Shown piece by piece: positions 26,605 to 61,090 of a stretch of DNA of 64,000 nt. Under the pieces are notes generated by a model that worked only from the letters and a program-made list of their open reading frames with translations, did no database searches and was not told where the DNA came from. The translations under genes were made by a program, and so were the position numbers. The stretch is taken from assembly GCF_905475395.1 (NCBI RefSeq), contig NC_058337.1, forward strand, positions 84,624,368-84,688,367, given 5' to 3'. This DNA comes from Chrysoperla carnea. Taxonomy: Eukaryota; Arthropoda; Insecta; Neuroptera; Chrysopidae. The first letter of the stretch is position 1; every line of letters starts with the position of its first letter.

Positions 26605-29600
26605 CTCGACGTTTAAGCGAATACGTTTCACATTATGAGCCATTATCATATGATACACAGGTGGTTCATAAAGCTCATTTACGTGTACGTAGATCAATTA
26701 GTAGAGATCGACCGCAAGGTGAACACGTACAAATACAATTTCATGCACATGGTCGACATTTTAACTTACGTTTACGGCGTGATACAGAAACATTTCATGA
26801 TCGCTTGCGAGTCGATGGACCAGATGGTAATGAAATTCACGTTGATACAGCACATATCTATCAAGGACATCTCAAAGGTAAGCCATATATAAACTTTTAT
26901 AGCCGATTTCAATTTGTTAATTTTATTTGAGCTTCGCGGCTAATTTGATGAAGTTTTATTAAATAATATTCTTTGTAGAACTATTTTAATGCCAATGAAA
27001 ATGAGTAAGTATATGCTATGACTAAGTTCAGAACTTTAAAATTGTTGGAACGAGAGATCAAAATCATGCATCTTTTTGATTAAGAGGTCCTATACTACAA
27101 TAAATAGCAAAGTCCCCAGCACAAGCCTTACGGGAGAAACTTTTACCTAACTTGAATTTATTTTATAAGATAGATCAAATATCTCTACATCTATCGAATT
27201 TAAAAACTCATTTTTCTTTCACAAATCAGAGGGCATAGTTCAAAATAGGCATAATACACGCCTTTGGGAATTTAACAGTTACTGGAAGGCTTGTATTCTG
27301 TATAAAATTTACACAACGATAGCTTATAGCTTACATAATGAGTTGATTGTCAATAAAAATTAATTCCACAACTGGATTCCCAAAAATAATTTTTTATCCA
27401 TAAAACTGGCTGATAAAAGTTGTTATTTTCGGACATCCTATTGTCTGAGATCGTCGATCGGCAAATCATTTGTCGGATATAAGCTTTTGATGGGATTTTT
27501 AATTACTTATTTTTGTGCTTTTATCACCGATGAGTCAACAAAAAACAAGTCCCCATACTTGATGGTCTTGGAGATATTGATTATCAAAGAATCAATTTTC
27601 CGGGACTATGTTTGAAGTCACCGAAACTGTTTTTCATAAATTTGACCGGGAACTTTTGGCCTATGTGAGCTAAAATCCTCAAAAAAGGAGAATAATTTAA
27701 CAAAAAGTCGCAGAAATACAGCAGGAAAGAAAATCAGGAATAGGAAACGGCATATTTCAAGCTTATTCTCGTCTCTCTAATTTTAAAAAACAATTTCAAA
27801 TTTTAAATAAAAACTCACCACAAGAGAAGGCGTAGTTTTCGTACTCAATGCGTAGCGTAGGTGCATCACATATGATAATTATTAAAAATTTTTTTTTAAT
27901 TTCGTCTTTTGAACACTGCATCTTGTTATTTTAAAAAACAAATACAAAATCTGAATTTGATATCGTTTTAAATAATCAAGTAAACTAGCAACTTTAGTTA
28001 ACTTTTCGTAACTTTTATGAATTTCTCTGGATAATTATGAAGTACTTGTTTTAATAATCAATTTTGAAATAATACATTTCTCATTGCAGATGATTCAAAC
28101 AGTTATGTATTTGGATCGGTGATAGATGGTGTATTCGAGGGCAAAATAGTGTCTTCTGATGACTCATTTTATGTAGAAAAAGCACATCATTATTTCCCCA
28201 AAGACCAACAAACAAACCAAAGCTTCCATTCTGTGATTTATAATGAAAAACATGTTACTGATCCACATCTCCACAAGCGTAAACATTCAAGTGGATGCGG
28301 TGTTACCGATGATATGGTACAATGGATGGATAGAGTTGCAAATTCCGCCGTAGATGATGATAATATCGATGCTGAATCCAAATTAACAGAACAAAATAAA
28401 ATTAAAAATAGTGTACCAGAAAATGTGAAAGAAAAACATAAACAAGAACAAATTTTACCAAAAAATCTTAGAAATAGTTTTGAGAATCCATATGAGAAAT
28501 ATAGTCGTGAAGCGAATTCCAATGATTCGTCGTCACATCAGCGACACAAACGTGCTGCTCCAAAAGAGAATAAGCGTAATACATGCTCATTATTTATACA
28601 GACTGATCCACTTATTTGGAAACATATACGTGAAGGTTTCCCAGACCACAGAGATCCTAATAAAAGACTTGAAATAGATGAGAAAACTAGGGAAGAAATT
28701 TTATCATTAATTGCACATCATGTCACTGCCGTTAATTATATTTATCGAGATACGAAATTCGATGGCAAAATCGAACACAGGAATATTAAATTTGAAGTTC
28801 AAAGAATTAAGGTAAGATTCTGAATATTTTATTATCCTTAAATAAATTAACAAGATATTTCCATTGGCAAAAGGTTTTAAAATGTGTTATAATTGGAAAT
28901 CCTTAACATTATAATTTTGAAAAAAACTGATTCTAAAAAATTTTATTAAAAAAATTAATTATTATAAAACATCTCAAGATCTATTAATTAAAAGCAGAAA
29001 GTTTACTCAAATCCGCCTGTCAAATGCTTTCTTAAAGATTTTCCGTTGAACTGGGATTGTTAGCTTCATAGTTTACCAAACTTCAGCTTAATTGCTCGAA
29101 TAGTGAACAATACCAATTTTTAAAGTTTAAGACAATGTTTAATAAAAGTGGAATGGTATAAGAGCTGGAAACATCGCGCAAGTTGGTTTTAAGTATGATG
29201 GATTTTAGATATATCTTTTTTCATTCTTATTAGGTAGAAATGAAGTGTGTCTGGCACCTGAGAACGGTTGAGTTAATTAAGTTAATATTTCACGCAAAAT
29301 AACTGTTTTCACAAATTATTAAACATTTTTTAAAACGTTTTTTTTTTCTTCTAGATTGATGACGATTCAGCATGTGGCGGCTATCCATATCGTGGTGAAT
29401 CAAATCCATTTTGTATGGAAAATATTGATGTCAGTAATTTTTTAAATTTACATTCGTTGGGGAATCATGAAGATTTTTGTTTAGCATATGTATTTACATA
29501 TCGTGATTTTACTGGAGGTACCTTAGGATTAGCATGGGTTGCATCGGCGTCAGGTGCTTCAGGGGGTATTTGTGAAAAATATAAAACATACACAGAAACT

Positions 29601-32600
29601 GTCGGTGGTACTTATCAATCAACAAAACGCTCATTAAATACGGGTATTATTACATTTGTCAACTACAACAGTCGTGTACCGCCAAAAGTGTCACAATTAA
29701 CATTAGCACATGAAATTGGTCATAATTTTGGATCACCGGTAAGTATTAAAAACAAATATTACTCCTTAGTAATACCATAGATGTAAAGTAACCAAATCAT
29801 TCCAGCCTTTAACTTTGAAAATTTTAGTCTTATATAAGAAAAAAAAAGTGAACTTTAAGAGCCAGCACACTACTCTTATGCACTGGGCTGTTTGCTGCCA
29901 ATCCAACATATCACTGTGTATCAACCTACTATGTAGCCTAAAGGCAATCAAATGGATACCATACTGGCTGCTGCAGCCAAAACAATAAAAAAGCGTTTTG
30001 TTATAAATAAATGATAAATTTTTTAAATTTTACAAGAGAAATGAGAGTCTATTACAATCCAAATAATGTCAAATTACTATAATTGTAAAGAAGTAAATTC
30101 TAGTAGCTCAGTTCGTTAAAGCGTATCCAATTCCGTTCGCGGTATGCCTAGGGTAGCGGGCTCGATTCCTGCCGTCACAACAAAAATTTAATTAAAATTT
30201 GTGATGGACTGGTGTAGTGCATGGCATATGCATGAAGGAAGTGCTCTCAGTCTCTGAAAATAATTGAGGAGCTGATAAATGAAATTGTCAGCGGAAAAGG
30301 TAGCAAAACACATGTATGATTTGGTATCACAATAGGCTCTATAGCCTGAGTGTGTCCTTCGTGGACAGCCAATATAGCTTAACCTAACCTGTACAAAACT
30401 TACATTATAAAAAAAGGGAAAAGTATTGATGTAATGTTTTCTTTTTTGTTTGGGTTTCGCGAATTGCATACGCGATGTACAAATAATAAAAACGCCACAC
30501 TTTTTGTTTCGTTAAAGTTACAGATGTGTAACTTTGTTACCTTTGATCCTTTTGGGCTCTACTAGAACTTACATTAAGAGTATGTAAATAATTGAGCTTG
30601 AAGATGGGCTGTTTTAATATACTGTAAGATTCGAAGTGTTGTGCAATCGCAAATTCAAAATTTTAAAATGATATTAAAATAAATCGTGACACAGTCCAAA
30701 AGAACCAAAGATAACAAACTTACATGCCTGCAAATTGTCGCATTTGAACGAAGTGTATTACATGTTTAAAAATGTCCCCGTTTATACTTACTCTTCAGCT
30801 CTTCCACGCGATTCAAATACTTGAAAGAATTAATTTACAGAAATATTTATATTTCAGCATGACTATCCACCAGAATGTCGTCCTGGTGGATTAAATGGCA
30901 ACTTTATAATGTTTGCTTCGGCGACTAGTGGTGATCGCCCGAACAATAGTAAATTTTCTCTATGTAGTGTGGGTAACATATCAGCCGTCCTAGATGCCAT
31001 TGAGGACAATAAGAAACGCAACTGTTTCACAGCAAGTGAAGGTGCATTCTGCGGCAACAAAATCGTTGAAGCCGGTGAAGAATGTGATTGTGGTTATGAT
31101 GATTTAGAATGTTCTGATAAATGTTGTTATCCACGTGTTGTCAGTGAAGTGGAAAAAATGAAAAATGATTCAGCAAAAGGTTGTCATCGTAAATATGGTA
31201 CACAATGTAGTCCAAGTCAAGGACCATGTTGTCAATCATCGTGTCATTTTGTTCCTGCGTCAGCATATAGTGTGTGCAAAGGGGCGTCGGATTGTAGTTA
31301 TTCAAGCAAATGTGATGGCAAATCACCAGAATGTCCTCCGCCATTACCAGTGGCGGATAAAACACGTTGTAATAATGGTACACAATTATGTATTAAAGGC
31401 GATTGCGCTGGATCAATTTGTTTGGAATGGAATTTAACGGAATGTTTTTTAACATCTAATATTATTCCAAACATAAATAAACGAAAGTTGTGTGAGTTAG
31501 CATGCCAAAATGGAACAGATCCACAATCATGTAAAAGTACCAGTGAATTTGCACATCTGGTTGGTTTACCTCCTGGAGGTATTAGTCTGCGTCCAGGATC
31601 ACCATGTGATAATTTCCAGGTAAGGTTGTGTATATAATATTTACAAAAGACAATTTGTATAGGCTAATGAGTGAAGTGAATATTTTACCGCTAGAGTGTG
31701 GATAGAAGACAATTCACGGAGTTAATGTTATTTCACACAGTTCGCAGAGTCTCTCAATGTGCGACAAGAGAGTATATTTACAGTAAAAGATAATTTGTGA
31801 TATTTCGTATATTCAAATTTTCAAGAGACAATAAAGGCATTTTTTTAATAACTTATATAATTGTGATAATTTTTTTCCAGGGTTATTGTGATGTGTTCTT
31901 CAAATGTCGAGCAGTCGACGCTGAGGGGCCACTAGTTCGATTAAAGAATTTATTATTTAATAAAGAGACATTATTGACTGTCGCACAGTGGGTCACAGAG
32001 TTCTGGTGGGCAGTACTCTTAATGGGCGTTTTATTTATTATATTTATGGGTGCTTTTATCAAATGTTGTGCCGTGCATACACCATCATCTAATCCAAAGA
32101 AACCACCTGCACGACGTATTAGTGAAACGTTACGTAGACCAATGAATACGCTGCGTAGAATGGTGAGGAATTTTGTAATATTTATATATACATTGTATAA
32201 AAGAAAGTCGCTATTCGCAAATCTCTGTCTGTCTGTTTATTCGCTAACTTATTCTAACTATGCAACGGATTTTAAAAAGGTTTTCACCATAATGTAGATA
32301 TATTTTTTTTGCAATTTTATTTGTGTTCATAATAAATTCTAAAGTTCTATACATACATATTTTTATACTTTGCGTACTTAAAAGTGCGGAAACTTCCCAT
32401 GCGACTCGGACCCGATCGTTAATTTTTTTTATAATTAGAACTTTTTGCAATTTTTATTTTCTACAGCATCGGCATCATCATCATCATCATCACCCACCGG
32501 CTGGACCAACACCTATGCCACGAAATAGTAGTAGTTCGGGAAATCGTGGTCGAGGTGATGGAGCGTCTCGGCCTTCTGCTAGCCGTGCACCGCCACATGG

Positions 32601-46195: not shown

Positions 46196-46994
46196 TCCAC
46201 AGTATTATTAAATGATTTTACTTAATACGGCAGTGGAAAAGGTCGCCATTTTCTATTTTTTTCTTAATTTAAAAAAAAGGAGGAGAGGTTTCTTCCGAGA
46301 ACAAAATTCAGCAAGTGACTTTTATAATGAAATAGCAAAACAGTATACATGTAATGTGCCGTTGATAATTTTATGCTTAGTAATTTCGCAAGTTGTGGTA
46401 CCTAGTATATAGTCACACATCGAATTCACAAATATCGTTCATAGCAGTAGGACACTCTGTAGGTTCCAATTAAAGAGACTGAAAACATCACGCAAATGCT
46501 GTAGATAATTTCGCACCCAATTATTTTATAAGTTTTGACAGCATTTTCAAGTTGATTTTACAAAAAATATTCGTTATTTAAAGACATTATATATGTCTCT
46601 AAAATCATGCATAGCCTTTAAATAATTACGAGCTCAATTATTTCGCAAGTTGTGAAAGCTATATCAAGTTATTCGAATTCATCGCATTGTTTAGATTGTG
46701 TATTTATTTATATGCGAAATTCAGGCTTTTCTGGTTGATATTCTAGAGCAAGTCTACAGGATTTTGTATTTTCCCGCCTATGTTATTTTTAACACATGCG
46801 TTAAATATAATGATTTAACATTTTAGCAGATATTAATAAATTTTTTAGATTTTTTATGTTAACTCAAATAAAATTGGAATTTAATATTAATTATTTTTAT
46901 GATATTTATTTCAGATCAATTCAAATTATGTTTAAATTACTTAGATGTTTATAGGTTAGAAATCCTTCGTAAAGATTTCTGTCATTATGTCAAA

Positions 46995-48193
46995 ATGGCA
47001 TGCTTACGGCCAGTAGTTAAGCAGTTGAGAATAAGTTGCACAAATTTTCAATTAAAAAGACTTATAATGACTTCAAGTTCAGATTTAAATAAAGCTGTTG
47101 ATGAATTACAAAAAAATCCGTATTTCGATAAATACGCGCAAAAGATTGCTAAATTACAACAAACTTCACCCGAAGAATTTTTAAATAGAATCGAACAGAA
47201 AATGCTAAAAGAAAAGGCTGATAAAGAGAATGCAAAATTAAAAGAAAGGTATTTCTAATAAAAATTGTTTTTATTGAAGGGAAATTAATTTTTGAAGTGT
47301 TTTAGACAATTTTCGTCAGTACTCAACCCTAAACCAGACATTACCTCAAATGAGTCAAAAGTAGAAACAAAAAATTTAGAAGATATTATGAAAATAGAAT
47401 TAATAAAAGATAAAACATCGGAAGAAATCGCAGAAATTTGGAAAAAATATCATTTAACAAAAGATGCAATTTCAGCTGTTATACAAAAAGAACAATTTGG
47501 ACAGATACGTGAAAATATGAAAAAACACCCAATCTTTATATTCCCATTACCTCGTAGTCAGGGATATGAATTTATTATGTGTCAATTTTCTGGTACAATT
47601 GCACACTTCACCCCATTAATTTGTTATCAGGTAAATTTCCCACTAACTTATTAGATTTGATTAAAATTGATAGATAGGCAAAGGTCGTTCAAAACGGAGT
47701 GAGTGTTCGAGAATGTAGATATGTGGACTTAATTATATGTAACTCTACTTCTACACTCTCTCCTATTCGATCTCATTTCATTTTGAATGATCTAAATGTT
47801 TCTAATTTTAGTCTACTGGTTTCTAAAGAATAAATGAAATAAAATTAACTTTAATCATATAGTTAACTTATGTAGATTTCCAATCGAAAAAATGTTGCTT
47901 ACAATATTTTGTATTCTTTTTCCTAGGTTCATAAAGAAAATGCTCCAGAATGTTTAACTCTGGTTCATTATACAGAATTAGAAGCGGATAAAGGTATCGT
48001 ATTAATGAGAGGCGAATTTGATAAAAATGTAATTGATACTAAAGAGGCACAATGCTTAGCAAATCAATTACAATTGTATTATGGGCAAAATGATGAAGAA
48101 CGTTTGAAAATTCTAGAAACATTTACACATAAACCTGATGAATTTAAGCATATGAGCTTAATCAAACAACTTGAAAACTTACAATTAGTCTAA
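46995..48193 (+). CDS. Atpaf1: ATP synthase F1 assembly factor 1 (ATP11 family)
   Basis: Mitochondrial chaperone; family members bind the F1 beta subunit and help build the alpha/beta hexamer of ATP synthase. Exons 46995-47248, 47306-47630 and 47927-48193 encode 281 residues, within the family's usual range. Introns are GT-AG. The first is only 57 bp and splits an arginine codon (AG/A), and the second lies between codons. The first about 25 residues (MACLRPVVKQLRISC…) are basic without acidic residues, as expected of a mitochondrial presequence. A charged helical stretch follows, then the ATP11 domain from about residue 115: MKIELIKDKTSEEIAEIWKK, FPLPRSQGYEF, HYTELEADKGIVLM, EAQCLANQLQLYY and HKPDEFKHMSLIKQLE. 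The reading frame is open upstream to 46899, where a 'tttcag' suggests a 5' UTR acceptor. I chose 46995 because the upstream segment is acidic and unlike a presequence; a later ATG (MTSSSDL) is possible. A poly(A) signal may lie near 48381. Confidence 0.93.
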
Positions 48194-50426: not shown

Positions 50427-50480
50427 CTATATAATCCTTGTCTAAAACTTTGAGGTATGTTTCAAATTTTATAAGCAAGG
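50427..50480 (+). promoter_or_regulatory. Conserved upstream block of micropeptide gene 1
   Basis: A TATA-like tctatataat precedes tctaaaactttgag (50441-50454), which is followed directly by gtatgt. The same order (TATA-like motif, identical 14-mer, then gta) is found at 52971-53020 before gene 2. Two readings are possible: a non-coding first exon ending at 50454 and spliced to the acceptor just before the ATG at 51078, or a core promoter around a start site. The gta directly after the 14-mer in both copies favours a splice donor. Confidence 0.5.
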
Positions 50481-50833: not shown

Positions 50834-50905
50834 GATCCTTAGGAAATACTGCAGAACATCAGTACCTGAGATCCTTAGGAAATACTGCAGAGCATCAGTA
50901 CCCAG
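50834..50905 (+). repeat. 36-bp tandem duplication
   Basis: gatccttaggaaatactgca occurs at 50834 and at 50870, with the rest of the unit almost identical. It lies at the end of a degraded repeat (50780-50830, 'gagccacagcaaaacgtggccgg'), all within the presumed 5' intron of micropeptide gene 1. Confidence 0.8.
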
Positions 50906-51077: not shown

Positions 51078-51376
51078 ATGAAAAATCCAATTTGGTGTAT
51101 TTTATGGTTCTTGGCATTGTGGTTCTTTGCATTTTGGATATCAGGGATTTCTTCCTGGCTTTTTGTTTGGGTTTACTTATTTTCACAATGCTTTCCTGGT
51201 CTGGAGGTATTACTTTTTTTTACCTGTTCATGTTTTTTTGAAATATATTATTTTGAATATACGTAGCGAAATTAAAACAATTTCTATTATAGGGTGCGGC
51301 AGATTTTTTGCTAAAAGGCATGCAGTTAGCGGGATATTGTGCCAATAAGATGATTCACTGCGAAGGATGCTCTTAA
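51078..51376 (+). CDS. Trp-rich membrane micropeptide, family copy 1
   Basis: No function recognised. Two exons, 51078-51206 and 51293-51376 (86-bp GT-AG intron between codons), encode 70 residues. Residues 1-43 are strongly hydrophobic with six tryptophans (MKNPIWCILWFLALWFF…) and probably form one or two membrane passes, ending QCFPGLE. Residues 44-70 are amphipathic, DFLLKGMQLAGYC…, and end CEGCS. A splice acceptor-like 'tttttag' abuts the ATG, so the start is the first codon of its exon. Gene 2 at 53829 has the same exon structure and tail, and gene 3 at 60962 the same first exon. The 3' flank shares 'taaaatggt…actat' and '…cagaaaaaa' with gene 2, showing a duplication that included the UTR. 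I have an impression, not a match, that other insects encode unnamed proteins of this size and N-terminus. Splice consistency across copies is the main evidence that it is real. Confidence 0.8.
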
Positions 51377-52970
51377 AATGGTCAACTATAAAATCAATCG
51401 TAGCCAGAAAAAATCGGAAGCAACATTAGTCGACTTAAAATTTTATGGGTATTTCCTACTCTATATTTGGTAGTCATTTTTAGAAATTAAACGGACATTT
51501 AACTGTAAAACAAACAAGAGGACACACGTCCGTCTTTCATCCTGAAGTGATATCAAACCCCGATGATACCGATTTTTTTTTCTACGCTCTTGACTTAAAA
51601 TAATGTATTTAAAAAATAAAATATTGATGTTTCAAGCCGCACTGATTTATAACAAACGTTTATTTCACTTGTATTTAAATGTTAGTCCTTGTAAAAAATA
51701 AAGTCATTTAAAAATTTACTTTGCTAAGAAAACTTTTTTTTTTTGTTGTAATCTTTTGAATGCCCAATTGGATACACCTTACCTGTTCTTGCCACTGAAA
51801 ATATTACCGTTTATATAGCCAATTTCAATCACATGCAATTTTCATTCATACAAACTGAAATTGTCTCAGCATCTTATAGACCGAAGCGCGCATAATGAAT
51901 CAAAATTTCTTCAAGGTTTGATAAATGTAAGTTTAGTGAATATGAAAAAAAAAAAGTTTTAACGGTAGCTCGAGTGTCTTTATGAAAATCAAGTTTTTCG
52001 TTTTCGTGTGTTGAAAGTTTGCAACATTCGGAAAATATCTTTTGTCGTTTCAACATTTGTAATTTATTGTGGGCGTGAGCTAGATTTTGATCAGAACGAT
52101 CCGAAGAATTTCGGGGGCGGTTAGAAAAAAATTTCACGGAAATCCATTTTCCTATCTAATCGGGCGGGGTCCTTTTACTTGCAAACTATGCATTAATGCA
52201 TTTTTCTGTTGTTTGTGGCTGTTTGTTATTGTTGTTATAGAGACACAATCAATCAAATTATTATTTATTTGTTTTCGTAATCAATCGTATTCAAAAGATT
52301 TTAAAAGTAAAACCTCAAATGTAAAAAATTACAGTTTTGTCTGGTTCGACGGCCCGTTTTTATTTGAAAAAAACGGAGGTATGTGTAATTTTGCAATGCT
52401 TGTTTTTTCAAATTTAAAAAAAAAAAAATGAGGAATATATAAGAAATTAAGGATAGCCAGATAAAAAAAAATGGCCAAAAGCACTTTTGTACAATATGTT
52501 GTGAGCTAGGTGATTTTCGTGAATGGATTTTTGGTAACTTAAAGATTGAAGATGATATTTTTTTAATAAATGCAAATTTATGTTATAGTTACGTACGTCT
52601 ACGATACTTATTTGATATCTAACTAATTTGCAGTTAATTTGAAAAAGCCAGACAAAAAAAATTATATTTACTGTTTATATATAATTATATTTAACTTCAA
52701 GAGTGTTCATCATAATTATTCTCTACTTAAATTTTAATATTTTCACCTAATAACTTAATAAGTTTTTACTCATCGTAATATTGAAGCAAACTATCTTCAA
52801 AATTTTTTCTTACAGGTCTAAATGATCTTATAACATTGTACATTGAAACAAAGGTAGAAAAACAGAGATAACCATTTCATCGAGCGAATATCACATTGGA
52901 TTTTTAAGGACATTCAACAATTGCCATTGTGTTGTGATATGTTAACGGTGTGCCCTTCGCCTTTATTACT
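51377..52970. other. 3' UTR of gene 1 and spacer
   Basis: Poly(A)-signal-like AATAAA motifs lie near 51618 and 51699, just after gene 1. The remainder is AT-rich spacer. Open frames at 51874-52137 (minus) and 52087-52431 (plus) overlap each other, have no domain and no splice partners, and I do not treat them as genes. Confidence 0.5.
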
Positions 52971-53020
52971 ATAAAAGTTTGAGTCTAAAACTTTGAGGTA
53001 AATTTTAAATAATGCATGCA
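52971..53020 (+). promoter_or_regulatory. Conserved upstream block of micropeptide gene 2
   Basis: TATA-like actataaaag is followed by the same tctaaaactttgag 14-mer (52984-52997) as at 50441, then gtaaat. The similarity continues loosely for about 20 bp. It probably marks either a 5' non-coding exon spliced to 53829 or the core promoter. No matching block was found upstream of gene 3. Confidence 0.5.
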
Positions 53021-53597
53021 AATGAAAAAAAAAAGAAACACTGGTCACACAACCTCTACATAATATAACATATATATGCTTCTCTTTCCAAAAGTTTTTG
53101 AGGACGTCTTAAAATTTAAAAATAATACATACTTACAATTAATATTTGTTTTAAAACTAAATTCAAGAATCCCACAAAAATCATTTTTATCGTAGAAAAA
53201 TTTTTTGGAAATATTTTTAGAAAACTTTCCTCGCATTTTGTTTTTGTCGTAGCTATCGGAGAGCGATACTAAAACCGCAATTCCCCACTTTTCAAAATTT
53301 ATTATAGTACCAATTAGTTCCGGAGCAGTGGCAAGAGAAGATTCAATAAATTTTTACCTGCGGTCTTTAGGTATACACTATGACAAAAGTATGCTCTTGT
53401 CATATCTTCAACGCATTCCACCAGCAATGGCTCGAAAAACTTCATAGTAAAATTTCCAAAGAAGAATGATCGACTTTGACGAAAATGATAAAAAACGTAT
53501 TAGGTTAATTTTCTTAATTTCTTTCGAACCAGGATCGGTGAAATTTAAAAAATACCTACAGAGAGTTATAAAACTCTAGCTTGTTGACGAAACTTCT

Positions 53598-53660
53598 TCA
53601 TCCCTATTAGTTTACTTTGGTTTCATCCCTATTAGTTTACTTCATCCCTATTAGTTCGGC
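53598..53660 (+). repeat. Three short direct repeats (ttcatccctattag)
   Basis: The sequence ttcatccctattagtttact occurs at 53598 and 53622, and its first 16 bases again at 53641. It lies in the presumed 5' intron of micropeptide gene 2. Confidence 0.8.
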
Positions 53661-53828
53661 TTTGTTAAGTTTTTAGACAGCTCATTGGACATTTTTATTA
53701 CTTTAATCGCTTGTTTCTCATCTCCCGCTGCTTTGTATGTGAATTCGCCATTAGAGGTTGTGTGCCACCTGTTACAGCATTTTCCTCTATATTTTAAGTT
53801 TCAGTATAATTTTTTTTGCATTCATTAG

Positions 53829-54105
53829 ATGGGGTGTATTTGGTGTGTTTTATGGTTCTTAGCTTTAATCTTAGCGGGAATTTGGGTTTCTCAAATCTGT
53901 TCTTGCTGGTATGTTTGTTGTTACGTGTTGTTACAGTGCTTTTCTGGTTTAGAGGTGAGAAATTTCGGATTCTGAAAGGAATTTTGATATATCTAATATT
54001 AGAAACGTATTTTTTTTTAAGAATATTGTGGAATTCACCCTAAAAGGAGCAAAATTTGCTGGATTTTGTACTGAGAAAATGATTAGCTGTAAAGGTTGCT
54101 CGTAA
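53829..54105 (+). CDS. Cys/Trp-rich membrane micropeptide, family copy 2
   Basis: No function recognised. Exons 53829-53954 and 54022-54105, with a 67-bp GT-AG intron between codons, encode 69 residues. The first exon gives a hydrophobic segment starting MGCIWCVLWFLALILAG and ending QCFSGLE. The second gives NIVEFTLKGAKFAGFC… and ends CKGCS. It aligns with gene 1 along its whole length with a one-residue gap, and the second exon is exactly the same size (84 bp). It holds ten cysteines, twice as many as gene 1, including a CC pair at 30-31 and C3 and C6 near the N-terminus. This might allow disulphides, lipidation or metal binding, but none is shown. The ATG directly follows 'ttcattag', an acceptor-like site shared with the other copies. 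The N-terminal MG is compatible with myristoylation only in principle. An upstream in-frame TTG at 53816 adds little and breaks the alignment. Confidence 0.8.
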
Positions 54106-57024
54106 AATGGTTACTATGGACCACCTTAGTCAGAAAAAAATTAAGGAGAAAGACTTATGGGTTTAGAAATGTATACTATAGAAAAACGTTGATAAAAACA
54201 ATGGAAGTACCTACATCAATAAATTATATGTACAAAATTTGTTTTTAAAATAAATTTTGTAAGCAATTTTCCAGCTTGAATCAAAATTCGAAAAGTAAAA
54301 CCTTAATGAGAGTTGTCCCTTTTTCTGATTATGGTACTGGTTTGTAAAAAAAAGTATTTGAAAAAATATAAGTGATGTTTGTTTTAAATTAGTGGTTTTT
54401 CATATCTTTTATCTGGTTTTACAGTTTGATTCACGAAAGACGCAGATTTCATTTTGTAAAGTCATATACAATATATATATACTTATCGATAGTGATAAGT
54501 TCATATAATAGATGAATATACCAAAGATGACTAAAAGTTGTGTAGTTAAGAAACGTGTGCATTACGAACATTAGGATTTCACTATACACTTTCTAATAAC
54601 TCAGTCATAAAATTCTATGTACTAAAGGACATTGAACTTCAGTTTTACCAATCAATGTTATGAACATTGATAAAATATCATTATAGTGGCTAATAATAAC
54701 AGCCGGCAACAAATTTTTACTGTTAATTCGAAGTTAACTTAATGTTCTTATAACAAGGCTTTGTTTGCACAATATGCTTAACGGCTTCTGAAAAGACTGT
54801 TGTATCTATAGTAATGTCAACTTTGTAAAAAGTTATTCCGGGACATTTTAAAATTTAATCAATTATTATACGGGACAAGTAGTTATTAAGCGGGACAAAA
54901 AATTCATATTTAAAATTCATATTTCATATTAATTTTTTAAGTACTCAAATGATTGAACACATAAAAAATAAGGAACATGAATAACTATTATTTGTATTTG
55001 TTGTTTTCTATCCTTAGATAATATTTATACTTTTTATCCATATAAAAGATGACCATAAATATTTAAAATTCCATAGACTACTAATAAAAGAAGCAATGAG
55101 GTCTTTAAGAAATGAGGTAATAATTAATAAATCAGAATAGTTGAGTTTGCTAGACAAATGCCACCACACAATACAGGGTTTCGGGATGTTTCAACAAAAA
55201 CTCATTTGTCCGTTTAGTGGAAAACCGGTATTATAATATAGTTTAAAATATAACTGCTAGTAAAATAAACCGCAGACGGATAACTGCTAATTAATTCATT
55301 ATGAAGTGTCCGTAAAAAAAGTTATGTATGGAATCAACTGGAAAACAGTATCGTTTTCATTATGAAAATGAATGATAGTTTTCAAATTTATGTCGAAAAA
55401 AGCAAGAATAAGGACAATTACTTTGAATACACTTATTGTAATGCTAAATATCTTTTTGATTCGCTCGACAAAAAATTATTTTTGAACATATGTTGATATG
55501 AGCTTTCTTGTTTCTTTTGCTAGAGAACACACATCTAAAATATACTCGTACAATTTTGTATCATCCTGTATACCATTTTCGAATATCAATACTGAAGGTA
55601 TGGATCCCGCACCCAGCGCTTCCTAGATTTATCAACGCAACGTATTGAGAATTAATCCCAAGAATAAACTTTTTGTGAGTGTTTTTTTGCATTATGGGCC
55701 CTTGTTTTTTAGTCTTCCAACTACCTGTAATATATTTAGATTGTACCGTTTGCGTTTTGTTGATTGCAACGTCATGATGCTTAGTACACTAACAAGCCAT
55801 CCCCAGACTGGATTTACAACTAAATTTAAAATAGAATTGTGTTTGTTATTTGTTTACGCCTAAGCTAGTTTTAACATACAAGTTACAGGTGTGTGTTTTA
55901 TTGAAATATTAGAATATAAATTGTTTTAAAAGTGTGTTTTAAACTTTATTTTTTTAACTAAAAGCGAGGTAAATATTTTTTTTCAACATTTAAAAAGTAA
56001 TTTTACAAAATATTCATTAATAATATAATTTTAAATTAAATAAGATACGAATATTAAGAATTTTATTTCTCGATTACATCATTTTATATGAGATAGGATC
56101 ATAAATCTAAAAATATTATTCTTGTTTATTATGTGCCTTTAATAAACCAGTGATTTCTAAAATTATAGACAATCTACCTAAATTAAATATTTATGCAAAC
56201 TTACGTATTGCATGTAAAATGTGTAATGATATCATTTTAGATATTTGTTTACAATTTGTTACATTTCGTATTTACATATTAAAAAACATGATAAATGATA
56301 AATTTAACCTTCGAGAATATTTTAGAATTCATCTGATAGGTAATTATCTAACTTTACTTTCTTGAATAAATAATTTCAATTTATATATATTTTTGTATTT
56401 AAAGGCTGAAAATATTCAAACTTCATCATCAAAAAGAGTTAACTTCTTAGAGATATGATAACTTATTTTTAAAAAGATTCGGTAATTTCGGTTGAGCTTC
56501 TTTATAACCTTCATGGTTGAGCTTAATTATTTTAGGTTAAGTATACTAGGGCATTATTATTATTATTATTATTCACTGAGCAAGAACATATGTGATTTGA
56601 AAAGTTTGTTAGGTAAATTAGGTGTTTAAGTTCAATCGGTTTAGTTAATAATTAATCGATTAAAAAGATGTCATAAGGGGGCCTGAAAATTCACTCGGTT
56701 TGCAAAAAGTTTACAATTTCGAAATCAGCTGTTGGCTTATAAGTAATAAATACGTATATTGAAAAATCTCTTACCTTATTACAAAAATTCAAATTTTACA
56801 TGCCGTGGAAATAGTGTATAAATTATAGATAGTATTTTGATTAGTATAGTACTGTTAATATTATTAACAGTTTTCTAAAAATTAAAATAATGCATATCTT
56901 TTGTAGAATATCTGTGAACAACAAGTCGAATAGCAGTCAAAATTGCAAATATAAATAAATAGACCTGAAAATAAAAAAAAACCCCACTATTACTGGAGTA
57001 AATCTAAGCAAAAAAAGGCTGTTA
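54106..57024. other. Spacer between micropeptide gene 2 and the palindrome
   Basis: AT-rich. AATAAA motifs near 54211 and 54250 may end the gene 2 transcript. An (att)n microsatellite lies at about 56552-56573. Frames at 55645-55863 and 56150-56365 have no recognisable features. Confidence 0.5.
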
Positions 57025-59007
57025 TATGGATTAAAAGTTCGAGCAACGAAACTTTGGGGTTTTTCTTTTCACATCAAAATAAGTATTTTTTGAAATTTTT
57101 TACTTTCCCGGAGTGGTGCAACATGTTTAAAAAACAAAATGGCGTCAAAAATGAAATTTTTTTCAGAAATTTTATCATTTTTATTTTATATTCGCAAAAG
57201 GAGGCATCGGTGCATATCCAAATTTGGTAGGTTTGTAGTCCATGTTAAGAACTACTCCTCATAATTTTTTGGTGGGGTTTCGTCCCTTCCCCTCCCAGTT
57301 ATATATATATGTATACATACATATGGTAAAACAGTTCATTTAATTATAACTTGAAAAATATTCGATTGATTTTAATGAAACTAATATCAATAGTAGGTTT
57401 TATTACTTACAACTTTCGGTTAAAATTTTAGCGAAATCCGTTAAATAGTTCGGCCAAAATTTCCAATTTAGGAAATTGTTTAAAATGGCTGCCATTTTAT
57501 GCCATTTTGTCCTACGAGGTTAAATTTTTTTTTAAATTGTAGCATTTTTTATTATCTTTCGATTTTATAATAAGTGGCTTACCCGTAAAATGACTCCTTG
57601 ATCCATATTTTTGCGAAAAACGGAAAATTTTGCACTTTCTGTAAATAATTGTTTGGGGGGTGTATGGACTGGCTTTGGGGGGTGTTTTTTGCTTTGGCAT
57701 GAGAAAACTATTTTTAAAAGAGGTCTATATGGTTTAAAGCAAAATTTTTAAGTTTTAACCCCCGCGCTGTAAGGGGAAGGGGTGTATGAAATAAATGTGT
57801 CTTAAAAGATTTTAAAAAGAGGTCAAAATAGTTTAAAATGCTAAAGTAACCCAAAATTTTAGATGATTTTATTAATATAGCACTTTTTACAACATCCACC
57901 CCTTCCCCTCCTGCTTTCATATTTTTTGCAAATTCAAAATTTTTATGACGTATAAAGAGGTTTTGGGGGTCGCTGATCTCGAACTTTTGGCCCAAATAAG
58001 TACACCCCCTAAAAATATTACAATTGTTTTTGATAATCTATTGCAAAATTCGAGATCAGCGACCCCAAAAACCCCTTTGTACGTAATAAAAATTTTGAAT
58101 TTGCAAAAAATATGAAAGCAGGAGGGGAAGGGGTGGATGTTGTAAAAAGTGCTATATTAATAAAATCATCTAAAATTTTGGGTTACTTTAGCATTTTAAA
58201 CTATTTTGACCTCTTTTTAAAATCTTTTAAGACACATTTATTTCATACACCCCTTCCCCTTACAGCGCGGGGGTTAAAACTTAAAAATTTTGCTTTAAAC
58301 CATATAGACCTCTTTTAAAAATAGTTTTCTCATGCCAAAGCAAAAAACACCCCCCAAAGCCAGTCCATACACCCCCCAAACAATTATTTACAGAAAGTGC
58401 AAAATTTTCCGTTTTTCGCAAAAATATGGATCAAGGAGTCATTTTACGGGTAAGCCACTTATTATAAAATCGAAAGATAATAAAAAATGCTACAATTTAA
58501 AAAAAAATTTAACCTCGTAGGACAAAATGGCATAAAATGGCAGCCATTTTAAACAATTTCCTAAATTGGAAATTTTGGCCGAACTATTTAACGGATTTCG
58601 CTAAAATTTTAACCGAAAGTTGTAAGTAATAAAACCTACTATTGATATTAGTTTCATTAAAATCAATCGAATATTTTTCAAGTTATAATTAAATGAACTG
58701 TTTTACCATATGTATGTATACATATATATATAACTGGGAGGGGAAGGGACGAAACCCCACCAAAAAATTATGAGGAGTAGTTCTTAACATGGACTACAAA
58801 CCTACCAAATTTGGATATGCACCGATGCCTCCTTTTGCGAATATAAAATAAAAATGATAAAATTTCTGAAAAAAATTTCATTTTTGACGCCATTTTGTTT
58901 TTTAAACATGTTGCACCACTCCGGGAAAGTAAAAAATTTCAAAAAATACTTATTTTGATGTGAAAAGAAAAACCCCAAAGTTTCGTTGCTCGAACTTTTA
59001 ATCCATA
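57025..59007. repeat. Near-perfect 2-kb palindrome (inverted repeat)
   Basis: Arms 57025-57983 and 58049-59007 are reverse complements with only occasional mismatches and no net length difference (mirror positions sum to 116032 at both ends). They surround a 65-bp non-palindromic spacer. Transcription through it would give a hairpin with a stem of about 960 bp. The duplicated frames on opposite strands (for example 57512-57700 and 58332-58520, identical in translation) are mirror images and have no domain. I saw no target-site duplication at the ends. It could be an inverted pair of transposon copies, a foldback element, a hairpin-RNA locus or an assembly artefact. Confidence 0.9.
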
Positions 59008-60299
59008 CACAAGGCGTAATTTCACTCTACTATATGCATTAGTGGGATTTTAACCTTCATTGGAATAAAGAATCCTTACTAACACACTTTAAAAAATTTA
59101 GTTTGGTCTAGGTGGACCTTTATATTGTCATAATAATTTTTATTAGTCTACTGTTAAAAACTTATATTTAATTTGTTGGTTTTTTATTATAATGAAAATT
59201 TCCAAAAATTTTCGGTGGCGGCTTCAAGAAGTCGAATAAAATAAGAGACAGAGGAAAATGTCGCGAAATGAACGACGAATAACATATATCTTATGTGAAT
59301 AATTACGATTTATGTAATTTATACTGATGATGACTACATTGTAGACGGAATACATATTATAACATTATTCAAAATTATTTCCAATACTTAGAGCTCTCCT
59401 GGAGCTTTAAACAATTATCTTTGATAATTTAATAGTCAGATGTAAAGTTATAAAAAATAGTACTCAACGATAACGCGGAAATTAAGTTTAACAAAGTTAT
59501 CTGGGGCACACGCGTGTTAGCCGTTGTTATTGACAAAGACATTGTCGGCTCGAAGCCAATACAATTGCGGGTCAGTTGTTTGTTGCCTATAATGTTAAAT
59601 ATAAAACTTAAAAATTAGAAAATAATATTGATAGGCTCTATCAAAAAGATCAAAAAAATTCATTAACAAAATTTTATGAGTCGTGAAAAAGTAACTTCTT
59701 AAAGTTGTAAGCGCACCTTTTTAAAATTACATTACATAATTGCATTGGTATTTATACATAATAACTTTTAACTCTGTAAAACTGAAACAGTCAATCAGTA
59801 ATAATTATTAAGGTGCGGCTTAACACCATGGCGAACATTTGCCATACATCAAATATTTGTTATTCATCAGATATGTGTTCCTCGTTGTTATATGTAAAAC
59901 ACCAAACAACCTAGCCACAATAGTGATGTATAACAAATATTTATTGTTAGACGTATATAAGTATTTGTCTCGCCCTTACATCATGTTGGTATTTTTAATT
60001 AATAATTTTGATATATATTTTTATTTTTAATGAAACATATTCCGTCGAGTTTGAAATGAAAACAATAAAAATTTAAATGAAAATGGGATAAATTTTATCT
60101 TGGTAGTTCACAGCAATAATATTTACTTTACACTCTAGAAGTCTAGATAATTAAAACAATGGTAGGTGCCAAATAATGTTGAAATTTTAGATTTAGGACT
60201 GTTGTAACATCAAGTTGTGTACATAAAATTTTCAATATCTTGCACACCTCATTTCGTGCACTTTTCGATATATCCCACAATTAAGCCGTAGAAACTTGG
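59008..60299. other. Spacer, no gene seen
   Basis: AT-rich. About 60178-60260 carries the 'taggactgttg' repeat phrase also seen at 21826 and 21984. No coding run seen. Confidence 0.5.
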
Positions 60300-60445
60300 A
60301 TTTAGAAGGGGGCAAACATGTGATCTGAGACATTATTTACTTGTTCTCGTGGTATGTATACTATTTTTCTGCTCAACGGAGGCGGAAAGCAACAACTTAC
60401 CTTAGCACAGTGGGCCGAAAGTTGACACTTTCCGCCCGGGAGGGA
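60300..60445 (-). repeat. GC-rich dispersed repeat, reverse copy
   Basis: Reverse-orientation relative of the repeats at 4895 and 25645. It has 'catgtgatctgagaca', the 'cggaggcggaaagc' module and the closing 'gaaagttgacactttccg' palindrome, here read from the other strand. It lies about 0.5 kb upstream of micropeptide gene 3. Confidence 0.6.
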
Positions 60446-60961
60446 AGAAAAAATATTTTTTATACTGCATATATTTGATCATTTTGTATGTTCAGAGTGG
60501 TCACATGTGATGTTTCACAAATATTTGTTGTGTGTTGTATTTTTATACGACAAATAATCGTTGTGTTCGTCATTGTGTGAATCCTCACCTTTATGCAAAG
60601 ATTAAAATAAATATTAAATAATAATAAACACTTAGTTTGGTGTGAGTAGTATAGTTTTAGTACCGCTGAGATAAACATTATTTTATTTTTATACAGTGGG
60701 TAGAAGAGTGTGAGTGTGTAGATTCGGATCAGTGAGTGTGTTGCTTGTTAATAAAAATTATTATTTTTAATTTGAATTATTTTAAAAAATCACAAAACTT
60801 AGCGCTATTTTAGCCAATAGAAACGTAGTATTTAAAGGTAGTTTTCCCTTTTTTAATTTTCTTTTGCACTAGTGATAAATTTACATACTGTATACATAAC
60901 TGTTTTTCAGTGATTTTTTGAAGCTTTTTTTTTATTTTGTTTGGTTTTTTTTGTCTGTTAG

Positions 60962-61090
60962 ATGGGGAATCCAGTTTGGTTTGTTTTTTGGCTCCTAATT
61001 TTAATATTTATTTCATGGTGGGTGGCATCATTTTGCGCCTTTTGGTATATTATTGTTTATACATTAACATTATGCTTCCCTGGATTAGCG
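60962..61090 (+). CDS. Trp-rich membrane micropeptide, family copy 3, first exon only
   Basis: First coding exon of a third family member, 43 codons: MGNPVWFVFWLLILIFIS… ending CFPGLA, then a strong donor gtaagt at 61091. It has five tryptophans and two cysteines and aligns without gaps to exon 1 of gene 1 (51078). A pyrimidine-rich tract and 'gttag' abut the ATG, as in the other copies. The frame stays open past the donor to 61237, but the extension has no similarity to the second exons of genes 1 and 2, so I end the exon at 61090. No second exon with the …KG….C…C.GCS pattern was found up to 64000. Either the intron exceeds 2.9 kb and the exon lies beyond the window, or it has been lost. Sequence between it and gene 2 suggests an older split than that between genes 1 and 2. 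Confidence 0.7.

Follow-up and report, generated by a model that had tools for sequence, protein, structure and literature searches.

Among the small open reading frame (smORF) proteins of insects, a class of "longer" members of about 80 amino acids (aa), often transmembrane, is recognised in Drosophila, and many of them await characterisation (PMC4359375). Hemotin/Stannin, an 88-aa membrane smORF peptide, acts on 14-3-3zeta at early endosomes (PMC4807881). The locus analysed in the present study is a stretch of 64,000 nucleotides (nt), hereafter the window, on chromosome 1 of the lacewing Chrysoperla carnea (NC_058337.1, positions 84,624,368 to 84,688,367), in which three genes on the same strand, termed genes 1, 2 and 3, are tandem paralogues predicted to encode tryptophan-rich membrane microproteins of about 70 aa. 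The family fits the insect class of ~70–80 aa transmembrane smORF proteins. The lacewing proteins resemble the Drosophila class in their length of about 70 aa, their predicted hydrophobic helix and their signs of selection, whereas that class is not a homology family and no member with this sequence was identified in the present analysis. Compared by description, Hemotin/Stannin is likewise a small hydrophobic membrane peptide of an insect and regulates a partner, which is proposed for the lacewing family as well, whereas the lacewing family is a tandem triplet and rich in Trp.

The three genes share one architecture, and their spliced products comprise 70, 69 and 70 aa for genes 1, 2 and 3, respectively. 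The introns of all three begin with GT, end with AG and lie in phase 0, the last coding exon measures 84 bp in each gene, and all three frames are intact. The exon coordinates that had been proposed in the initial annotation for genes 1, 2 and 3 were all confirmed, together with the 84-bp second exon it had described in genes 1 and 2, of which gene 3 possesses an equivalent outside the window, and the conserved intron position and phase, which is a phase-0 junction in each of the three genes. The last exon of gene 3 was found with a profile derived solely from the corresponding exons of genes 1 and 2, which was run in six frames over 74 kb (the final 14 kb of the window and 60 kb beyond it), where it scored 60.5 against 18.0 for the next best candidate; it is preceded by AG, stands in the correct phase, carries a stop at its end and is separated from the first exon by an intron of 5634 nt. 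With this exon the gene model passed an out-of-sample test, and the structure of the three paralogues, as read from the sequence, is established.

Paralogy of the three genes was observed at levels far above those of the controls. Exon-1 profiles built in each case from the other two genes gave held-out scores of 116.5 for gene 3, 117.5 for gene 1 and 117.0 for gene 2, against best scores elsewhere in the window, in six frames, of 11.5, 13.0 and 14.0, respectively, while the three pairwise alignment scores (203, 174 and 164) exceeded all of the 1000 layout-preserving shuffles made for each gene pair (maxima 63, 72 and 66). By sequence, genes 1 and 2 are most closely related to each other, with 52% identity in each coding exon, and gene 3 stands further apart, at 39% identity to either of them; genes 1 and 2 also have a CxGCS tail and an upstream element in common. 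The three genes almost certainly constitute a real coding family, and the local cluster of Trp-rich small membrane proteins that had been suggested from the window is supported and extended by the second exon of gene 3 beyond it.

For the three gene pairs, ratios of nonsynonymous to synonymous substitution rates (dN/dS) were computed by the Nei-Gojobori method with 1000 codon bootstraps per pair. The ratios are 0.27 for genes 1 and 2, 0.40 for genes 1 and 3 and 0.53 for genes 2 and 3, values that are only rough because dS is high (1.39, 1.26 and 1.00, respectively), and the proportion of nonsynonymous differences was lower than that of synonymous ones in 1000, 990 and 964 of the 1000 bootstraps for the same pairs. 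The ratio between genes 1 and 2, the one that the initial annotation had asked for, is below 1. Differences at the first, second and third codon positions number 22, 18 and 36 over 69 codons between genes 1 and 2, a clear excess at the third position. The sequences carry signs of purifying selection between the paralogues, in open frames that are shorter than 100 codons (69–70 aa), as is the case for the insect ~70–80 aa smORF class, the ratios being rough.

The proteins have 17 residues that are invariant in all three genes, namely M1, W6, W10, L12, L14, W20, Y33, C38, F39, G41, L42, L50, K51, G52, C59, M63 and C66, and the junction motif reads CFPG in genes 1 and 3 and CFSG in gene 2. For the exon-1 peptides AlphaFold predicted a single helix of 35 residues (residues 4–38; mean predicted local distance difference test score, pLDDT, 89.9; predicted template modelling score, pTM, 0.49). 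Over residues 4–38 the octanol-scale transfer sums, each gene being scored in its own numbering, amount to −31.6 kcal/mol for gene 3, −30.3 for gene 1 and −22.5 for gene 2, and residues 1–43 contain 0, 2 and 1 charged residues, respectively, again in the numbering of each gene. This predicted, strongly hydrophobic helix is of the transmembrane type found in the insect smORF class. The C-terminal tail is moderately amphipathic, with a helical moment of 0.34–0.41. Taken from these features, the proteins are very probably embedded in the membrane.

The explanation that accounts best for the locus as a whole, held with about even confidence, is that the three tandem paralogous genes encode one family of ~70-aa membrane microproteins with an anchoring helix and an amphipathic tail. 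Residues 4–38 would make up a single long helix, rich in Trp and very hydrophobic, that serves as membrane anchor, and the last 27 residues, with their conserved LKG, Cys, Met and Cys, would form an amphipathic stretch placed at the membrane surface, where a cysteine of the tail may carry a lipid. The protein would then dock laterally, helix against helix, with a larger membrane protein or with a second copy of itself and act as a small modulatory subunit, broadly as do the small insect membrane peptides that have been studied. A regulatory subunit working through such lateral docking can be put forward only tentatively, and we infer membrane topology, lipidation and partner docking alike; our best guess at the role is a small regulator inserted in the membrane.

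Several observations weigh against this explanation. The dS values of 1.0–1.4 are high for so few codons, the third-position excess is weak in the pairs that include gene 3 (33/21/34 differences at positions 1/2/3 over 70 codons for genes 1 and 3, and 31/24/31 over 69 codons for genes 2 and 3), and exon 2 of genes 2 and 3 taken alone, the weakest part, gives a dN/dS of 0.83 over 27 codons. The internal donor of gene 1 is weak among the 3190 GT sites of the window. The AlphaFold model is limited to exon 1 and was built from three sequences, with a pTM of 0.49, and the single 35-residue helix exceeds what a bilayer needs. Tests for a Trp face of the helix reached no significance in gene 3 (p 0.26) and gene 1 (p 0.13) and only a borderline value in gene 2 (p 0.04), six other helix-face tests on small residues and on all aromatics gave p 0.34–0.65, and a Trp face is not claimed. 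A homologue was seen in no other genome, the search having covered viral and prokaryotic contigs and, among insects, Chrysoperla carnea.

Of the other explanations, genes for secreted peptides, in which exon 1 would supply a signal sequence and linker and the last 27, Cys-containing residues the mature peptide, are unlikely and yet survive best. The layout in two parts, with the hydrophobic part and the Cys-containing tail on either side of an intron, is what such genes would display, tandem and diverging paralogues are common among secreted peptides, and phmmer matched the tail of gene 1 very weakly to two engineered defensins (at E 0.34 and 0.48), hits that were judged to be chance. However, the hydrophobic stretch is modelled as one continuous helix of 35 residues, whereas the core of a signal peptide is shorter, genes 2 and 3 lack a basic N-terminus, conservation extends into the hydrophobic part at W6, W10, L12, L14 and W20, and the tail of gene 3 has two cysteines only.

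A caveolin-like scaffold, that is, a monotopic helix with a palmitoylated amphipathic tail which oligomerises and bends the membrane, is improbable. The likeness to caveolin (PF01146; caveolin-1, PDB 7sc0) lies in parts that follow one another in the same order, a long hydrophobic helix, then a Cys (followed by a Pro motif in genes 1 and 3), then an amphipathic stretch, and the role could be vacant, as a genome search with PF01146 returned no match at E 0.001 (7 candidates scored, with no match in any of 14 control genomes and hence no positive control), by which absence of caveolin from the Chrysoperla carnea genome is suggested. Caveolin-1, however, has 178 residues, of which the lacewing proteins reach less than half, and shares no significant sequence similarity with them: alignments to its residues 82–178 gave p 0.27 for gene 3, 0.71 for gene 1 and 0.09 for gene 2 against 1000 shuffles each, and genes 1–3 have no Pfam caveolin match. 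Homology to caveolin was rejected on these grounds, the alignments being no better than shuffles and the profile match lacking. The more specific proposal of a minimal monotopic scaffold of this kind, in which a Trp-rich helix and a Cys-bearing amphipathic tail would oligomerise and shape the membrane and would have been duplicated and diversified in lacewings, is quite improbable.

A small supernumerary subunit of an organelle complex, for example a mitochondrial one, has an equally slender chance. Size and the single hydrophobic helix fit such a subunit, and six tagged Drosophila smORF proteins of 52–90 aa localise to mitochondria (PMC4359375). A tandem triplication at 39–52% identity would nevertheless be odd for a stoichiometric subunit, and no Pfam family is matched at its cut-off; the ATP11-domain gene in the neighbourhood is probably a coincidence in this regard. 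Chance open frames or decayed pseudogenes, for which the small size of the genes in 29% GC DNA and their being known here from sequence could be cited, are scarcely credible in the face of the held-out scores, the predicted exon of gene 3, the three intact frames and dN/dS below 1.

The size of the family was assessed by protein searches with genes 1, 2 and 3 against the whole genome of 559 Mb in 337 contigs, in which only the best candidates were scored, so that very diverged members could escape. Only these three genes match below E 0.05. A weak match at C2:86835894-86836004 (L015:4883-5011, minus strand; tblastn E 0.435, exon-1 profile score 57) has an in-frame stop just before it and no second exon in the 10 kb around, and could be explained by chance or by decay of a dispersed copy; two further weak matches reached E 1.23 and 4.15. 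Scans of viral contigs (60 and 10 pattern matches) and of contigs of prokaryotic genomes (39 pattern matches) yielded no confirmed relative, results that say nothing on insects. Genes 1 and 2 match no Pfam-A family at E ≤ 10 and no NCBIfam family, and in the PDB neither gene 1 nor the three-sequence profile had a significant match. Several weak hits were judged to be chance, namely the sole Pfam-A hit of gene 3, to Strabismus (E 0.65, with 9 bits where the cut-off is 25), PDB matches of the profile, over its residues 30–62, to cyanobacterial glutaredoxin (five sequences, one at E 0.048 and four at 0.73–0.75), and a phmmer match of gene 1 to tetraspanin-7 (E 1.5). Literature searches, which included guessed motif words in full text, found the family named in no title or abstract, and it is apparently undescribed so far.

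Upstream of genes 1 and 2 an identical block of 18 nt, GTCTAAAACTTTGAGGTA, was observed, 620 and 828 nt 5' of the ATG, respectively, with a TATA-like box beginning 12 to 13 nt before it in both genes; a shared word of 18 nt occurred in none of 300 Markov-shuffled pairs (maximum 15). The block contains a putative 5' splice site, which in gene 1 (at 50455, GAG/GTATGT, the slash marking the junction) ranks in the top 0.6% and in gene 2 (at 52998) in the top 1.5% of the 3190 GT sites, and in all three genes the ATG comes immediately after a YAG and its long pyrimidine tract. Ranked by a simple pyrimidine score, the ATG-adjacent acceptors belong to the top 2.1, 1.1 and 0.9% of the AG sites of the window, while the internal acceptors of genes 1 and 2 rank only in the top 20 and 45%. 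The genes therefore probably have an additional, non-coding 5' exon upstream of the ATG exon, as their ATG sits in a 3' splice-site context in three of three cases, and the earlier description of short two-exon genes stands for the two coding exons of each gene and is probably wrong for the gene as a whole. The alternative is that the 18-nt block is a core promoter, with the transcript starting just past it: the distance of the TATA-like box favours the core promoter, and the donor in the block together with the acceptor beside the ATG favours the non-coding first exon. An unspliced leader is unlikely, because ten ATGs separate the block from the start codon in gene 1 and likewise in gene 2. 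Gene 3 shows no block of this kind over the 2 kb that were compared, where its longest words common with genes 1 and 2 are 13 and 12 nt, close to the shuffled mean of 12.1 nt computed for genes 1 and 2. An approximate search for the block over 48–64 kb, apart from genes 1 and 2, found at best a site with 4 mismatches, inside the foldback element described below, and no RNA structure was detected in the upstream block of gene 1 (z −0.26). Tandem units were also observed in these upstream regions, two of 33 nt, 36 nt apart and 97% alike, at 50834-50902 upstream of gene 1, and three of 21 nt (100%, 100% and 81%) at 53597-53661 upstream of gene 2.

Table 1. Features of the three lacewing genes, in window coordinates (a slash marks a putative splice junction).
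Feature	Position	Strand	Description
Gene 1 upstream block	50428..50457	+	TATA-like TATATAA, then GTCTAAAACTTTGAG/GTA (50440-50457); putative core promoter or non-coding first exon
Gene 1 first coding exon	51078..51206	+	43 codons, predicted Trp-rich hydrophobic helix
Gene 1 intron	51207..51292	+	86 nt, phase 0; weak donor, top 12.7% of GT sites
Gene 1 last coding exon	51293..51376	+	84 bp including stop
Gene 2 upstream block	52970..53000	+	TATAAAAG, then 18-nt block (52983-53000) as in gene 1
Gene 2 first coding exon	53829..53954	+	42 codons
Gene 2 intron	53955..54021	+	67 nt, phase 0
Gene 2 last coding exon	54022..54105	+	84 bp including stop
Gene 3 first coding exon	60962..61090	+	43 codons
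Gene 3 last coding exon	window-equivalent 66725-66808 (L007:2725-2808)		84 bp including stop; 2.7 kb past the window end

Between genes 2 and 3 lies a foldback element of 2 kb (56993-59030), flanked by TA at 56991-56992 and 59031-59032. Its arms (57010-57987 and 58045-59022, separated by 57 nt) mismatch at 12 of 978 positions, all in the outer 15 or inner 41, so that 922 nt pair perfectly. The arm has at least 83 matches in the genome, most of them near full length at 98–99% identity (40 of 1098 candidates scored), and the copy in the window has the same ends, with TA on both sides, as the other copies compared, five at the left end (L030-L034) and four at the right end (L030-L033; L034 had no right-hand seed match). 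TA flanks are those of Tc1/mariner-type insertions. The element looks like a recently spread non-autonomous one and is potentially a source of long hairpin RNA.

The window has a guanine plus cytosine (GC) content of 29.2%, and chromosome 1 is given as 29.1% GC in the report on the Chrysoperla carnea assembly inChrCarn1.1, which has an NCBI RefSeq annotation (PMC10116181). Upstream of gene 1, on the same strand, a family scan assigned the frame 30834-31634 to a gene with disintegrin and ADAM10 Cys-rich domains, the frames 47289-47651 and 48005-48190 to a gene with an ATP11 domain, and no family to the frames 28068-28820, 31794-32294 and 46872-47255. The first of these neighbours is kuzbanian-like, and the ATP11-domain gene is ATPAF1-like.

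To the membrane microproteins of insects the three paralogues add a concrete, testable family with a complete coding model, and the exon coordinates make confirmation or refutation by RNA sequencing quick. Until homologues and a phenotype come to light, the general importance of the family stays modest.

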